DNA from: Acidisphaera sp. L21
GTDB lineage: Bacteria > Pseudomonadota > Alphaproteobacteria > Acetobacterales > Acetobacteraceae
Reading direction: 5' to 3'
Length of the DNA: 46,831 bases
NCBI RefSeq assembly: GCF_009765685.1
Contig: NZ_LMUY01000115.1
Span: 1,466 to 48,296 of the forward strand
The translations under genes were made by a program, and so were the position numbers. A model generated the notes under the pieces. That model did not search any database, was not told the origin of the DNA, and saw only the letters and a program-made list of their open reading frames with translations. The stretch's first letter is position 1, and every line of letters starts with the position of its first letter. Shown here in pieces: positions 4,813 through 18,381 of this stretch.

Positions 4813-4910
4813 CTGCGATAAGCGGGGCGGGTTTTGGCGGCGCATAGATCTGGCGGTCCGGCCTTCGTGTGATCCCAGTTCTTGATGCCGCTCCCGAGAA
4901 GGAGCACGCA

Positions 4911-5474
4911 TTGCCTGACGGCGGAATGCATTTCCCGGCTCTGGTCCTCAACGCGGATTTCCGCCCGCTATCCTATTTTCCGCTCTCGGTCTGGGCGTGG
5001 CAGGATGCGGTCAAGGCGGTCTTCCTGGATCGCGTCTCCGTGCTCAACGAGTACGAAACGGCGGTCCGCTCCCCTTCGATGTCAATGCGCCTGCCCAGCG
5101 TCATCGCGCTGAAGGAATACATCCCCGCAGCCCGGCGCCCAGCCTTCACCCGGTTCAACGTGTTCCTGCGCGACGCCTTCGCCTGCCAATATTGCAACGA
5201 CCGTTTGCCCACGCACGACCTCACGTTCGATCACGTGATCCCCCGCAGCCGAGGCGGCCGCACCACCTGGGAAAACGTCGTCACCGCCTGCGGCTCGTGC
5301 AATCTGGTCAAAGGCTCCCGCCTGCCCCGCGAATGCGGCATGCACCCACGGCAGGTCCCATGCCAGCCCACGACCTGGGAGTTGCAGGAAAACGGCCGCG
5401 CCTTTCCGCCGAACTACCTGCACGAAAGCTGGCGCGACTACCTCTATTGGGACTCGGAACTGCTGGACGGCTGA
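4911..5474 (+). CDS. HNH endonuclease family protein
   Basis: This protein of about 187 residues has a C-terminal HNH nuclease fold. It has the zinc pair CQYC, the catalytic core LTFDHVIPRSRGG, ENVVTACGSCN with the second CxxC, and the final N/H region. The N-terminal half (FPALVLNADFRPLSYFPLSV) matches the conserved domain of a widespread alphaproteobacterial HNH family of unknown role. I prefer the TTG at 4911 because AAGGAG at 4899-4904 sits six bases before it. In-frame alternatives are GTG at 4869 and ATG at 4926. No restriction partner is adjacent. The gene probably encodes a housekeeping nuclease rather than a mobile one, but its substrate is unknown. Confidence 0.88.
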   Translation: MPDGGMHFPALVLNADFRPLSYFPLSVWAWQDAVKAVFLDRVSVLNEYETAVRSPSMSMRLPSVIALKEYIPAARRPAFTRFNVFLRDAFACQYCNDRLPTHDLTFDHVIPRSRGGRTTWENVVTACGSCNLVKGSRLPRECGMHPRQVPCQPTTWELQENGRAFPPNYLHESWRDYLYWDSELLDG

Positions 5475-8382: not shown

Positions 8383-8527
8383 CGGGTATTGGCAACAGAT
8401 CGGGCTTCGATACGGTTGGCCCGCTCAGTTCTGCATGCGAGTGTTGTGTTTCCGTCAATCTGACCCATCGGATGGATAGCAGGCCCGGCGAAGACGCCGT
8501 ATGGAGTGACGGTATCGAGGAGCGATA

Positions 8528-10195
8528 ATGGTCGACACTGCAATTTTCAGCATCTTCCATCGCCCGGCGCCCGCCCCGGCAGCGCCAGCGCCTGAGCCAG
8601 CCGCCAAAGAGCTGCCGCACGCTGAACCCACCCCAATCGCCGCCGCACCCGCCGAGCCGGAGCCAGTTCACGTCGAACCGCCTTCGCCTGAACCCGAACC
8701 GCTCGCAGTTGCGCCAGCAGAGCCGGAACCCGAGCCCGCCGCGCCAGCTCCGCAAGAACCGATCGCCGCCGCACCAGTCGAGCCCGAGCCGGTGCACGCT
8801 GAGCCGGTGCCCGCTGAGCCCGAGCCGGTCGTCGCCACACCGCCGGAGCCCGAACCGGTCCATGTCGAGCCGCCGCATATCGAGCCGCCGCATATCGAGC
8901 CGCTGCATGTCGAGCACGAACCGCACGAGCCCGTGGCCGATCCTGAACCGGTGCATGTCGAGCCGCCGCCCGTCGTGCTCGAGCCGCATGTCCACGCCGC
9001 GGCCGCGCTGGTCGAGCCGGAACCCGACTACGCCGACCCCCCGCCCGCCGTGCCGGAACCACACGAACCAGTTGCCGCACTGGCGGAGGCCCCCCTCGTC
9101 GAGGTTGAACCTGTCGTCACGGACGAGCCCGGCAACGAGCCCCCTGCACCGGCCCAGGCCAGCCTGTCTGAAGAACCAGAGGCCGAGCCGGCCGAAGACC
9201 CTCTGCACGCCCACGACGCATCCGAGCCGTTCGTCCTAGACGGTGACCTGTCACCCGAGGCCGAATCCGAGCCGGATCCGGAACCCGGCGACGTAGAACC
9301 CGAGCACGTCCAATACGAGCACGCCCAATACGAGCTCGCCCCGCTTGCCGAAGCCGCCGCCAATCCCGGTTGGGCGTTCGAACCCGAGGCCGAACCCGGG
9401 CCAGAGGCGGAGTTGCCCTACACCCCAGAACCCGGGGCAGCCGCCGAATACACCCTGGAAGAACACTCGTTCGAACCAGAGGAGCTTGCCGCCACAGACA
9501 GCTACGTCCCACCGCCGACGCTGGACGATTTGGCGCCATTGTATATTCCAGCGCCAGTGCCCGAGCCGCACTCTGAACCGGACACGATCTGGTCCGGGCC
9601 GGCCGAACTGACATCGATCCCGCTCGAGGCGGACCAGCTCGGCCTGGCAAACCCCATCGTCTTTACCGTCCTCGCCAGGCTCAGCGACTTCCTGCCGGTA
9701 GAACTAGATGCCTCCTACAGCGGCATCTACCGGCCACAAACCTTCCGCGCCGCGCCATGGAGCGGGTTCTCCTACGACCAGGCCGACGACGGGCGATCTG
9801 GCGTGGCAGCAGGCACACGCATCCTCACCTCCCGCGGAGAGTTGGAGGTGGAGAAGCTGCTGCCGGGCGATGCCGCCCTGTCGCTGCGGGCACCCGCCCT
9901 GCTGCCCATCGCCTGGATCGGCAAAAGCATCGCGACCGCGGCGCCGATCTGGTTCGACGCCGGGGCGCTGGGGCCGGATCTGCCGCGTCGCCCGCTTTGC
10001 CTGGCGCCGGATCAACCGGTCTATGTCGACCCGATCCCCGTCCCCGCCGCCCGGCTGGTGAACGGCACCACCATTTGCCAAATGGACTTGGGCCATGTCG
10101 ACCTGTTCCACGTCGATGTCGGCCGGTCCGAGATCCTGTTTGCCGAGGGAGTGCCGCTTTCCAGCAGCGACCGGTCGAGGCTGCACAGCACATGA
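8528..10195 (+). CDS. Pro/Glu/His-rich repeat protein with C-terminal Hint domain
   Basis: This is a 555-residue two-part protein. Residues of about 15-340 are very rich in Pro, Glu, Ala and His, with degenerate units such as EPEPVHVEPP, PPHIEPPHIEPLHVEHEP and PEPVHVEPP. This part is probably extended, acidic and unstructured. From about residue 426 a Hint-type (Hedgehog/intein) fold follows: AAGTRILTSRGELEVEKLLPGD, then LCLAPDQPVYVDP and AARLVNGTTICQ. Typical Hint_2 proteins start this domain with Cys and have a His in the SPDH motif. Here both positions are replaced (VAAGTRI; APDQPV), so self-cleavage looks unlikely. No signal peptide is seen. Its stop overlaps the fasciclin start (ATGA), suggesting coupled translation. 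The role is unknown. Confidence 0.88.
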   Translation: MVDTAIFSIFHRPAPAPAAPAPEPAAKELPHAEPTPIAAAPAEPEPVHVEPPSPEPEPLAVAPAEPEPEPAAPAPQEPIAAAPVEPEPVHAEPVPAEPEPVVATPPEPEPVHVEPPHIEPPHIEPLHVEHEPHEPVADPEPVHVEPPPVVLEPHVHAAAALVEPEPDYADPPPAVPEPHEPVAALAEAPLVEVEPVVTDEPGNEPPAPAQASLSEEPEAEPAEDPLHAHDASEPFVLDGDLSPEAESEPDPEPGDVEPEHVQYEHAQYELAPLAEAAANPGWAFEPEAEPGPEAELPYTPEPGAAAEYTLEEHSFEPEELAATDSYVPPPTLDDLAPLYIPAPVPEPHSEPDTIWSGPAELTSIPLEADQLGLANPIVFTVLARLSDFLPVELDASYSGIYRPQTFRAAPWSGFSYDQADDGRSGVAAGTRILTSRGELEVEKLLPGDAALSLRAPALLPIAWIGKSIATAAPIWFDAGALGPDLPRRPLCLAPDQPVYVDPIPVPAARLVNGTTICQMDLGHVDLFHVDVGRSEILFAEGVPLSSSDRSRLHST

Positions 10196-10770
10196 CGGCG
10201 CGGCTGCGGTGGGCCTTGGCAGCAGGGCTTGGCCTGGCCTTGGGGCACGCCGCGCCTGCCCTCGCTCAGAAGGGCGTGCCACCAACCTCGGTGATCGTCG
10301 GCGGCGCGGCGATGGTGTCGGACCACGACATCATGGACAACCTGTCGCACTCCACCGACCACACCACGCTGCTCGGCCTGCTGCAATTGGCCGGAATGAC
10401 GGAGGCACTACGCAGCCACGGCCCATTTACCCTGTTCGCGCCGACGAACGCCGCCTTTGCCGCCCTACCCGGCGGCATGCTCGACTCGCTGCGTAAGCCG
10501 GAGAACAAGAACACCCTGGTGGCGCTGCTATCCATGCAGATTCTCGAGGGCAACTACTCCTCCGCCCGGCTGCATTACTTGCTGCGCTACGGCAAGGGCA
10601 CCACCCAGCTCGATACCGTCAGCGAGGCCAAGCTGACGCTAACCACCAACGGGCCGCCCAACCTTATCCTGAAAGACCCGAGGGGCGGCACCGCGGATAT
10701 CATCCTCTACGACGCCAAGCAGGCCAACGGCGTCGTGTTCGTTATCGACCGGGTGTTGCAGCCGGGCTGA
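10192..10770 (+). CDS. Fasciclin (FAS1) domain protein, secreted
   Basis: This 192-residue protein has a signal peptide (MTARLRWALAAGLGLALG, cleavage near ALA-QKG) and one FAS1 domain. H1 is GPFTLFAPTNAAFAALP and H2 is NGVVFVIDRVLQPG at the very C-terminus. FAS1 domains act in adhesion or in extracytoplasmic protein contacts. The ATG at 10192 overlaps the Hint-gene stop. Its last 29 bases overlap the end of the convergent anti-sigma gene. Bacterial fasciclin genes are often found near ECF sigma/anti-sigma K pairs, so it may belong to that regulon (inference). Confidence 0.92.
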   Translation: MTARLRWALAAGLGLALGHAAPALAQKGVPPTSVIVGGAAMVSDHDIMDNLSHSTDHTTLLGLLQLAGMTEALRSHGPFTLFAPTNAAFAALPGGMLDSLRKPENKNTLVALLSMQILEGNYSSARLHYLLRYGKGTTQLDTVSEAKLTLTTNGPPNLILKDPRGGTADIILYDAKQANGVVFVIDRVLQPG

Positions 10771-11440
10771 TCGGGACCAGCCGGCCACCGAACAGCACCG
10801 CCCCCGTCGGCCCGCCCGTGGTCGATCCACCTGCCGGCTCATCGGAGACCAGCAATTGCTCCTGCGCGGAGGCACGGGCTGGCGGCGTCACGACCTGCGT
10901 GCCCGGCGTCAGCAGCCCAAGCGATACCGGCACAGCCGCCCCCTGCGGCAGGGCCCACAACTGATAGGCGCGACCGGACGGCGCCGGCGCGCCATCTAGG
11001 CTGGTGATGGCGATGGCGCCATCCGGGCGCGCCTCCGCCATGAACTTTGCGGGTGTGGCCAGTGGCGACAGAGCGGCCGCGAACCGCGCCGGTTCGGTTG
11101 GCTGGCCGGGCGGCCGCGGTAGGAACGCGAACAGCGCCAGGCTGGCCGCGATCGCCAACGACCCGGCGGTTGACGCCTGCCAGAACGCACGTCCGCTCGG
11201 TCGCGCCGGCTTGCCGATCCCTGTCGCCAGCGCCAGCCGGCTCCACAGGATCGCCGGCGGGGTCACGGGGGGCACCAGCATGTGCAGCGCGCCCAGCCGG
11301 GCCTGCCAGTTCACGATCTCGGCCGCGAATGCCGGGTCGCGTGCCGCTTGCGCCTCGGCCTCGCGCATGTCGGCCAGATCCAGGCAACCCAGCGCGTATT
11401 CGGCGGCGAACAAGGTCGGATCGTCGGTGCTATCGCTCAT
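10742..11440 (-). CDS. Anti-sigma factor, RskA-like
   Basis: This 232-residue membrane-anchored regulator should hold the adjacent ECF sigma factor inactive. The cytoplasmic N-terminus (FAAEYALGCLDLADMREAEA) fits the zinc-independent anti-sigma K domain. One membrane helix follows (AGSLAIAASLALFAFLP, about residues 92-110). The periplasmic RskA domain includes YQLWALPQGAAVPVSLGLL. Its start overlaps the sigma stop by four bases (ATGA), the usual arrangement for stoichiometric production. It converges on and overlaps the fasciclin gene. The signal it senses is unknown. Confidence 0.9.
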   Translation of the reverse strand: MSDSTDDPTLFAAEYALGCLDLADMREAEAQAARDPAFAAEIVNWQARLGALHMLVPPVTPPAILWSRLALATGIGKPARPSGRAFWQASTAGSLAIAASLALFAFLPRPPGQPTEPARFAAALSPLATPAKFMAEARPDGAIAITSLDGAPAPSGRAYQLWALPQGAAVPVSLGLLTPGTQVVTPPARASAQEQLLVSDEPAGGSTTGGPTGAVLFGGRLVPISPAATPGR

Positions 11441-12105
11441 GACCGCAGCACCTTGGCACCCTGCTCCAGGCAGGACCGCAGGGACATCAGCACCCGGCGT
11501 ATGGTGGACTTCACCGTGCCCAGCGGCTGATTGACGCGCACGGCGACCTCGCTCTGGGTCAATCCCTCGATAAAGGCGAGCACGATCAGGCGGCGGCGCG
11601 CCGGGTCGACGTCTTCCATGCAGTTGCGCAGGGCGGCGCCATCGGAATCGGCCACCAGCCGGCTGAGCGCGTCTGGGTCTTCGTCCACCTGCTCCGGCGC
11701 GTCGACGCCGGTGGTCTCACGGCCGTGCTTGCGGATCATGTCCAACGCGCGATACCGCACCAGGCTCACCAGCCAGCCATCGGCACTGCCGCGATCGGGA
11801 CTGTAACGGTCGGCATTGCGCCAAACCTGCAGCATCGCGTCATGCACCGCATCGCTGGCCAGCGCCGGGTTGCGCGTAATGCGGAGCGCCACGCCGTATA
11901 ATTTGGCCGAGCAGAGTTCGTAAAGCTGGCGAAATGCCTTCGCGTCCGCCTGGGCGCACTGCACCAAAAGCTGGGCGGTCTTGGATCCGGCTGCGTCACT
12001 CACGACGGTCAGGCGCGGTGGTGCTGCGTCGGGCTGCATTCTGTCAAAAGAGTTAGCCGTAACAAACCCCATCAGCAAGCCGCCGAGGGCAATTGAGCCG
12101 GTCAT
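11437..12105 (-). CDS. ECF RNA polymerase sigma factor, SigK-like
   Basis: This 222-residue sigma-70 family protein has region 2 (FRQLYELCSAKLYGVALRIT ... LQVWRNADRYSPDRGSADGW; LVRYRALDMIRKHGR) and region 4 (DPARRRLIVLAFIEGLTQSE, VNQPLGTVKSTIRRVL). The RskA-like gene follows with an ATGA overlap. The ATG at 12105 has GAAAGGAC upstream; internal ATGs at 12072 and 12039 are possible starts. Likely targets are its own operon and perhaps the fasciclin/Hint genes. No matching promoter pair could be proved by eye. Confidence 0.93.
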   Translation of the reverse strand: MTGSIALGGLLMGFVTANSFDRMQPDAAPPRLTVVSDAAGSKTAQLLVQCAQADAKAFRQLYELCSAKLYGVALRITRNPALASDAVHDAMLQVWRNADRYSPDRGSADGWLVSLVRYRALDMIRKHGRETTGVDAPEQVDEDPDALSRLVADSDGAALRNCMEDVDPARRRLIVLAFIEGLTQSEVAVRVNQPLGTVKSTIRRVLMSLRSCLEQGAKVLRS

Positions 12106-16626: not shown

Positions 16627-17172
16627 ATGGCGACAGAGACGGCGACACTGGGCGGAGGGTGCTTCTGGTGTCTGGAGGCAGTATACCGCGATCTGCGGGG
16701 CGTCACCTCGGTGAAGTCTGGCTATATGGGCGGCCGGGTGCCGAACCCGAGTTATGACGCCGTCTGTACCGGTATGACCGGCCATGCCGAAGTGGTGAAG
16801 ATCGAATTCGATCCGGCCCAACTCGACTACGCCGACCTGCTGCGGGTGTTTTTCACCATTCACGATCCCACCACGCTCAACCGCCAGGGCGCCGACACCG
16901 GCACCCAATACCGGTCCGTGATCTTCACCTACTCCGACGCCCAGGCCGAAATCGCGGCGTCGGTGATGGAGGAGATCCATGGCGCCAATATCTACGGCAA
17001 CGACATGGTGACGGAGATCGTCCCCGCGCCGGAATTCTATCCGGCGGAGGCCGAGCACGACCAGTATTTCGAGCGCAACCCCTACGCCGGGTATTGCCGT
17101 GCCGTGGTGGCGCCGAAGGTCGCGAAGTTCCGCAAGGTGTTCGCCGACCGGGTCCGCTCCGCCGCAGCCTGA
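16627..17172 (+). CDS. msrA: Peptide methionine-(S)-S-oxide reductase
   Basis: MsrA reduces methionine S-sulfoxide in oxidised proteins. The 181-residue protein has the catalytic GGGCFWCLEAVY motif with nucleophile Cys12, plus GYMGG, GHAEVVKIEFDP, DPTTLNRQGADTGTQYRS and the later YCRAVVAPKV. In many family members a C-terminal Cys acts as resolving residue; here the Cys in AGYCR is a candidate. ATG 16627 is chosen over an earlier in-frame ATG at 16609 because the conserved domain begins directly after it. The last 91 bases are antisense to the end of the methyltransferase gene. Confidence 0.95.
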   Translation: MATETATLGGGCFWCLEAVYRDLRGVTSVKSGYMGGRVPNPSYDAVCTGMTGHAEVVKIEFDPAQLDYADLLRVFFTIHDPTTLNRQGADTGTQYRSVIFTYSDAQAEIAASVMEEIHGANIYGNDMVTEIVPAPEFYPAEAEHDQYFERNPYAGYCRAVVAPKVAKFRKVFADRVRSAAA

Positions 17173-17894
17173 GCCGCCAGAACCGACTGGCCGATCGCCT
17201 GGCCGATCGCCTGGGCGACTTGGGGGACGACGGCGTTGCCCAGCGCCATCAACCTGGCCCGGCGGTTTCGGTCCAGCCCGGTGGGAAGCCCATCAACCAC
17301 TCGACCCAGGCCGGGTTCAGCCGGCCACCCACTGCATCGCTCAATGGGCAGGACCGGCGGCGGGTCTGCTGGCTGCGGCAACCCGCCTTCCAGTCGCGCG
17401 CCAGTGGCGTGGGCCAAAATGAAGACACGCTGCCGCCGGTGGGGCGCCCCGGCATGGACAGCACCCACCACGAGCGGCCAGCAGGCGTAACCCGCCGCCT
17501 CCAACCCGGCGAGCACTGCGTCGGCGCCGCGAACGCGCAGCGCAGGAACGTTCTCAACCACCACCCAACCGGGTCGGCATTCCTGCACCAGGCGCAGCAA
17601 CTCGCGCCACAATCCGCTGCGCCCGCCCTCCAGCCCAGCGCCCTTCCCGGCGGCGCTGACGTCCTGGCAGGGAAAGCCGCCGCACAGCAGCCCCGGCGCC
17701 GGAATGCCATCTGCCAGCAGCCCGACAGCGGACACGGTGCGGATGTCGGGGTAACAGGGCGTGCCTGGCCAATGGCGGCGCAAGACGGTGCGGGCAAACG
17801 GGTCTGCCTCGCAAAATGCCGCGATGTGGAACCCGGCGCGATGCAACCCGAGAGCCATCCCGCCGATACCACTGAACAGATCAAGGACGATCAC
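17082..17894 (-). CDS. DNA (cytosine-5) methyltransferase, orphan
   Basis: This 270-residue protein transfers a methyl group from S-adenosylmethionine to cytosine C5 in DNA. Motif I is LDLFSGIGGMALGLH, motif IV is GGFPCQDVSAAGKG with catalytic Cys76, motif VI is VENVPAL, motif VIII is PHRRQRVFILA, and motif X is ARLMALGNAVVPQVA. Only about 55 residues lie between motifs VIII and X, so the target-recognition region is very short, as in some phage enzymes. The start is GTG 17894. No restriction endonuclease is adjacent. Upstream are two direct repeats and a divergent XRE regulator. The C-terminal 30 codons are antisense to msrA. Confidence 0.93.
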   Translation of the reverse strand: MIVLDLFSGIGGMALGLHRAGFHIAAFCEADPFARTVLRRHWPGTPCYPDIRTVSAVGLLADGIPAPGLLCGGFPCQDVSAAGKGAGLEGGRSGLWRELLRLVQECRPGWVVVENVPALRVRGADAVLAGLEAAGYACWPLVVGAVHAGAPHRRQRVFILAHATGARLEGGLPQPADPPPVLPIERCSGWPAEPGLGRVVDGLPTGLDRNRRARLMALGNAVVPQVAQAIGQAIGQSVLAAQAAAERTRSANTLRNFATFGATTARQYPA

Positions 17895-18045: not shown

Positions 18046-18381
18046 ATGGCGCGATCGACGCCCGCGACACGATTGAAGAAGATGCTGAAGGATCGTGGCA
18101 TGACTGCCGCCGACCTGGCCCGCAAGCTGGATGTCTCGCAGCCGACCGTTCACGCTTGGGTGACCGGGCTGCACGGCATGCGGCTGAACAACGCCCGCCG
18201 GGTCTCTAAAGTGATCGGCGTGCAGGCGTCGTGGTTGATGTTCGGCACCGATGCCAGCGCCGAGGGCGCGGCCCAGGGTGCTGAAGAACTGGCGCTGTTG
18301 CGCCTGTGGCGCGAATTGGGCGAGGAAGAACAGACCGCGGCCATGCGCCGGCTGACCGCCATCCGCAAGAAGCAGGGCTAG
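18046..18381 (+). CDS. XRE-family helix-turn-helix regulator
   Basis: This 111-residue protein has an N-terminal lambda-repressor-like DNA-binding domain (LKKMLKDRGMTAADLARKLD, VSQPTVHAWVTG) in about residues 8-65 and a short C-terminal helix. A strong GGAGG precedes ATG 18046. It lacks the peptidase domain of LexA/cI repressors. It is divergent from the methyltransferase gene with 151 bases between starts. The likely job is control of that gene and itself; the repeat spacing would be consistent with this. Confidence 0.9.
   Translation: MARSTPATRLKKMLKDRGMTAADLARKLDVSQPTVHAWVTGLHGMRLNNARRVSKVIGVQASWLMFGTDASAEGAAQGAEELALLRLWRELGEEEQTAAMRRLTAIRKKQG

Follow-up and report, generated by a model that had tools for sequence, protein, structure and literature searches.

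A Hint_2 domain without its catalytic residues on an acidic Pro/Glu-rich arm in Acidisphaera sp. L21: a probable non-processing pseudo-Hint

Hint domains cut, splice or lipid-tag the protein that precedes them. Class 3 inteins are described as carrying a Trp-Cys-Thr motif whose Cys lies in block F (PMC7664689). An earlier survey described a poorly characterised bacterial Hint family from other bacteria (PMC2362128). More recently, a 2025 paper counted Hint (PF13403) among the functions that are enriched in marine Rhodobacteraceae with fast growth (PMC12487129). Our search of the open-licence PubMed Central literature, with subscription journals mostly outside its scope, listed no paper on Cys-less Hint_2 proteins. 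Here we describe such a protein, encoded in a stretch of 46,831 nucleotides of DNA from Acidisphaera sp. L21 (hereafter the window).

The initial annotation had placed an open reading frame directly ahead of a fasciclin gene, with a four-base ATGA overlap between the two; the list of open reading frames and Pfam agree with it on the frame, its coordinates and the overlap (Table 1). The frame is unbroken, making this an intact gene of 555 codons, and its G+C content by codon position is as expected for coding sequence. At third codon positions (GC3), the Hint part has a G+C fraction of 0.83 and the arm one of 0.72, versus 0.80-0.87 in eight other genes of the window. There is no room for an in-frame signal peptide, the open frame extending only 6 residues 5' of Met1.

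Table 1. Coordinates of the features discussed (positions in the window unless a locus is named).
Feature	Position	Strand	Basis
Gene for acidic arm, linker and Cys-less Hint_2 domain (555 residues)	8528..10195	+	ORF; Pfam Hint_2; codon-position G+C
GAGGAG, ribosome-binding-site-like	8517..8522	+	5 bases 5' of ATG; read in sequence
Acidic arm, residues 17-345	8576..9562	+	Composition
Linker, residues 346-424 (79 residues)	9563..9799	+	Mostly predicted disordered, except a short helix
Pseudo-Hint domain, residues 425-545	9800..10162	+	Pfam profile, alignment, predicted structure
Gly425 replacing catalytic Cys1	9800..9802	+	Alignment and structural alignments
A493-P-D-Q496 replacing S/T-P-D-H (block B; S/T-x-x-H)	10004..10015	+	Alignment
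Ser534 replacing block-F His	10127..10129	+	Alignment
Fasciclin-domain protein	10192..10770	+	PF02469, 81.9 bits
RskA-like anti-sigma factor	10742..11440	-	PF10099, 55.8 bits; convergent with fasciclin gene
ECF sigma factor, SigK-like	11437..12105	-	Pfam Sigma70_r2 and Sigma70_r4
Second-lineage Cys-less Hint locus	L325:2686-4661		
Second-lineage Cys-less Hint locus	L323:747-2788		
Second-lineage Cys-less Hint locus	L324:4268-6210		

A search for the whole protein in alphaproteobacterial genomes had also been proposed. Across 397 genomes of the family, with the best 8 candidates per genome scored, no whole-protein orthologue was found among the matches listed. A separate scan of genome contigs with the whole protein returned one match, in a Bacteroidales MAG; it spans residues 33-143, within the low-complexity arm, and we took it as a match of composition. 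NCBIfam gave 0 families for the protein and PHROGs likewise 0 (E up to 1). A plasmid search returned 49 records, all below 60% identity, with Acidisoma (Acetobacterales) and Pseudoroseomonas the best-ranked named matches.

Residues 427-545 match Pfam Hint_2 (PF13403) with 71.2 bits against a cut-off of 28.4, and the Hint domain first proposed from sequence features thus passes the profile test. We modelled residues 345-555 with AlphaFold2, using an alignment of 39 relatives. Model residues 81-200 (residues 425-544) form a block with pLDDT 91-97, a confidently predicted Hint fold, although the alignment consists of active relatives, which draw the model towards the fold that they have; pLDDT is mostly below 60 in the linker (model residues 1-80). 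Foldseek ranks BIL and intein structures highest for the model (best E 1.7e-4), and VIA-align gave Z scores of 14.2 to 6y75_A, 14.0 to 2lwy and 11.9 to hedgehog 1at0, several of the intein alignments beginning with model residue 81 (Gly425) on intein residue 1. The succession of strands resembles that of an active paralogue from the same genome. A phmmer search of the domain against PDB sequences had 0 matches (E up to 1). Among the matches listed, many active relatives continue beyond the domain with a further stretch; this protein lacks it, and the domain has no C-terminal Asn.

Autoprocessing Hint domains are defined by Cys or Ser at position 1, S/T-x-x-H in block B and a His in block F, the roles of the blocks being assigned here according to the intein literature (PMC7765530). 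At these places the domain has Gly425, A-P-D-Q and Ser534. We located the catalytic positions in an alignment of 143 distinct Hint_2 domains from the family of the window's genome, the window's own included. The replacement of Cys1 and of the His of the SPDH motif, already pointed out by the initial annotation, is real in this alignment; Ser534 is a third replacement that it did not mention. Among columns conserved in at least 90% of the domains, the protein retains 21 of the 25 that are non-catalytic and none of the 4 that are catalytic (Fisher p 0.003, with columns sorted post hoc and three conserved columns outside the aligned part excluded). This pattern fits a dead yet folded domain more than general decay. 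The block-F Cys that defines class 3 inteins (WCT motif) was looked for as well; FHVDVGRSEILFAEG contains no Cys, which rules out a class 3-like nucleophile.

Ahead of the linker, the arm consists of 25.8% Pro, 19.5% Glu and 17.3% Ala, with 77 Asp and Glu against 1 Lys or Arg. Its description as Pro/Glu/His-rich therefore stands for Pro and Glu, while the His part was overstated (18 His, or 5.5%). The arm carries H-[V/I/A]-E-P motifs, and its DNA holds only seven short tandem arrays, with periods of 6-33. We compared this composition among 222 distinct Hint ORFs, 207 of which extend 60 residues or more upstream of the domain; because many of the loci are cut short, this comparison is not a census. 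In the richest 100-residue segment 5' of the domain, Pro and Glu together account for a fraction of 0.54 here and at most 0.20 in the others. The architecture was called distinct from the start, and it is indeed absent from the other Hint ORFs examined.

How frequent is the loss of Cys1? We examined 194 distinct Hint_2 domains, a non-random sample picked by similarity to the query that includes the window's domain and in which both motifs are covered. Cys1 is present in 186 of them, the block-B His in 188 and the block-F His in 189; this tally leaves out the domains of loci L248-L292 and three domains of a second lineage, described below. Eight domains lack Cys1: the window's own, L192, L193, L199, L245, L297, L307 and L125, the last being unsure, with Cys residues close to position 1. 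All three catalytic residues are missing in five: the window's domain, L192, L193, L199 and L307. Catalytic loss is thus not unique to this protein, and the idea that its Cys loss has no parallel is ruled out by the further Cys-less Hint_2 domains of the sample. Judged from these sequences, catalytic loss in Hint_2 is rare but recurrent. L307 (G720:C50:67323-67721) belongs to another family of the class and has IPQQ instead of SPDH. L297 (G264:C146) has Gly at position 1, yet retains the block-B and block-F His.

Gly1 and APDQ are common to the window's domain, L192 and L193 (both from G019) and L199 (G264); G019 and G264 belong to one genus, and APDQ proteins were found in 2 of 5 genomes of that genus. 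In L192, L193 and L199, the Hint domain sits near the N-terminus, without a large passenger. L192 and L199 are same-locus orthologues; across 195 codons the two ORFs share 52% identity, dN is 0.45, and dS, at 1.53, is close to saturation. The resulting dN/dS of about 0.3 suggests that a Cys-less Hint protein is under purifying selection at this locus. These orthologues evolve faster than the two flanking ORFs, which are 81% and 83% identical with dN/dS of 0.08 and 0.14.

With a profile built from the four APDQ proteins, the members score 174-196 bits and the next match among those listed from the 397 family genomes scores 118, a gap that arises partly by construction. A class-wide profile search of 385 genomes gave matches at E up to 1e-12 in at least 11 of them, and no further APDQ protein was present among 20 loci taken from it; in each genome, the family and class searches scored the 8 or 11 best candidates, and what they show holds for the matches listed. 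In viral contigs, 43 pattern matches to the four-row profile were obtained and 0 were confirmed.

The second Cys-less lineage is represented in G264, G019 and G231, all of one genus, and has, by our reading, Ala at position 1. A methyltransferase-like gene lies upstream at each of its loci (Pfam on L325 and L323), and in both Pfam-scanned loci the ends of the two genes overlap. Pairwise dN/dS values of about 0.78, 0.38 and 0.57 give a less clear picture, with constraint that appears weaker.

For the descent of the window's domain, we built a tree of 73 Hint domains from 123 columns, the trait columns being excluded. It recovers the orthologue pair L192/L199 with support of 100/99 and places the window's domain apart from this pair with weak support (42/33). 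The AU test did not reject a tree in which the window's domain is constrained with the pair (p 0.46), and constraining all four APDQ proteins together was borderline (p 0.059). For the Gly1/APDQ set, a single origin is possible, and so is convergence.

In mycobacteria, SigK-RskA controls fasciclin proteins. The window holds a convergent sigK-rskA-fasciclin cassette, in which the fasciclin and rskA frames overlap by 29 bases and the stop of the Hint gene overlaps the fasciclin start (ATGA at 10192-10195). The fasciclin N-terminus looks signal-peptide-like by eye, and the NCBIfam matches of the SigK-like ORF lie under their cut-offs except for the general ECF model. We examined 20 fasciclin loci in 19 genomes, taken from the top of the match list, including the second copy in the window's genome and several that end at contig edges. 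The convergent sigK-rskA-fasciclin set is present in 9 of the 20, and none of the 20 has a Hint match (E up to 1e-5) beside the fasciclin gene. The Hint-fasciclin link is real in the window's genome but is not a conserved pair, and we discarded that idea. Because 9 of 20 loci have the cassette and none the Hint gene, the latter looks like an addition ahead of an older cassette. Elsewhere in the window, judged by eye, 17082-17894 (minus strand) encodes a cytosine-C5 DNA methyltransferase-like protein near a small helix-turn-helix-like ORF (18046-18381), and 4869-5474 (plus strand) an HNH endonuclease-type protein.

The genome contains six other Hint_2 domains (133-161 bits), none on the window's contig. 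Two active copies scanned with Pfam lie behind AIDA-like or subtilase passengers. One active Hint_2 gene is followed by a group 1 glycosyltransferase gene (L318:7079-8851) with overlapping ends, and by eye this glycosyltransferase has a GWA-type stretch resembling one found after several Hint domains.

We think it probable that the protein is a non-processing pseudo-Hint, whose folded domain would serve for binding or as a cap, carried on an extended acidic arm. With three catalytic positions replaced, the precursor would remain uncut, and the acidic Pro/Glu-rich arm would stay covalently joined to the C-terminal domain. Less certainly, the Hint fold may be reused as a binding or cap module, the polyanionic Pro-rich arm may act as an extended spacer, and the overlapping start may allow the Hint protein to be made together with the fasciclin protein. 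The binding role of the fold is purely what we infer. Cytoplasm is our default guess for its location, because no in-frame signal peptide fits and the C-terminal stretch after the domain is missing. Since a few similar Cys-less versions, presumably uncut as well, exist in other bacteria, they suggest that the fold is reused for something besides cutting. A broader proposal holds that Cys-less Hint proteins are recurrent, selectively kept regulators in these bacteria: by recognising either an active Hint_2 protein or the passenger of one, the dead fold would set the time of cutting or export, and here it would do so on a long polyanionic arm. We regard this proposal as improbable.

Alternatively, the gene may be a decaying paralogue on its way to loss: formerly an active Hint_2 gene, it would have shed the catalytic residues and the C-terminal stretch and acquired a low-complexity arm that drifts. 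The simultaneous absence of the three residues and of that stretch would fit this, as would an arm of degenerate repeats and the lack of an orthologue among the matches listed in the 397 family genomes, and inactive pseudogene inteins are on record (PMC3196547). However, the 555-codon frame is intact and has a ribosome-binding site, the other conserved columns are largely retained (21/25), the GC3 of the Hint part matches that of its neighbours, and conserved Cys-less orthologues exist elsewhere (L192/L199). Decay is possible on this evidence, though on balance doubtful. A pseudo-Hint that binds or regulates the active Hint_2 proteins present in its own cell would have the six other domains as potential partners, and in the three APDQ proteins elsewhere the domain lies close to the N-terminus and carries no large passenger, which would suit a trans-acting role; neither co-occurrence nor neighbourhood supports it, none of the six being on the window's contig, and we consider it unlikely.

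The arm had also been suggested to bind metal or to form a surface spacer. Its acidic character and H-[V/I/A]-E-P motifs are in line with this, and the adjoining fasciclin protein looks secreted, but a His content of only 5.5% and a frame in which no signal peptide fits make both roles quite unlikely. It is very unlikely that cleavage persists through a displaced nucleophile, by analogy with the block-F Cys of class 3 inteins. Inteins without a first Cys or Ser can be active (PMC7664689), and two candidates are close by, Ser424 adjoining position 1 and Cys491 adjoining block B; against them, block F has no Cys, the other three APDQ proteins have Arg or Val where this one has Cys491, and the block-B His is also gone.

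If the non-processing reading is true, the Hint fold has been kept without its chemistry in more than one lineage, with a conserved locus in one; such proteins would be natural non-catalytic controls and would make testable what the fold does beyond autoprocessing. Compared with alphaproteobacterial Hint_2 proteins (PF13403), the window's domain matches the profile, has the same predicted fold and keeps most of the conserved positions outside catalysis, and differs in lacking Cys1, S/T-x-x-H, the block-F His and the C-terminal stretch. Where active copies of the same genome follow surface-type passengers (AIDA-like, strand-loop-strand repeat or subtilase), it follows an acidic Pro/Glu arm. BIL domains and inteins are its best structural matches (6y75_A and 2lwy), but the window's domain has neither their catalytic residues nor their C-terminal Asn. 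It shares the missing Cys1 with class 3 inteins, not their block-F Cys. With the Gly1/APDQ proteins of G019 and G264 it has in common Gly1, APDQ and the missing block-F His, and two of these three also show a gap after WIG near the position of its own; they differ in having no Pro/Glu arm and different neighbours. Going by its residues, the protein is a Hint_2 by profile and not an autoprocessing Hint by the positions that define one.
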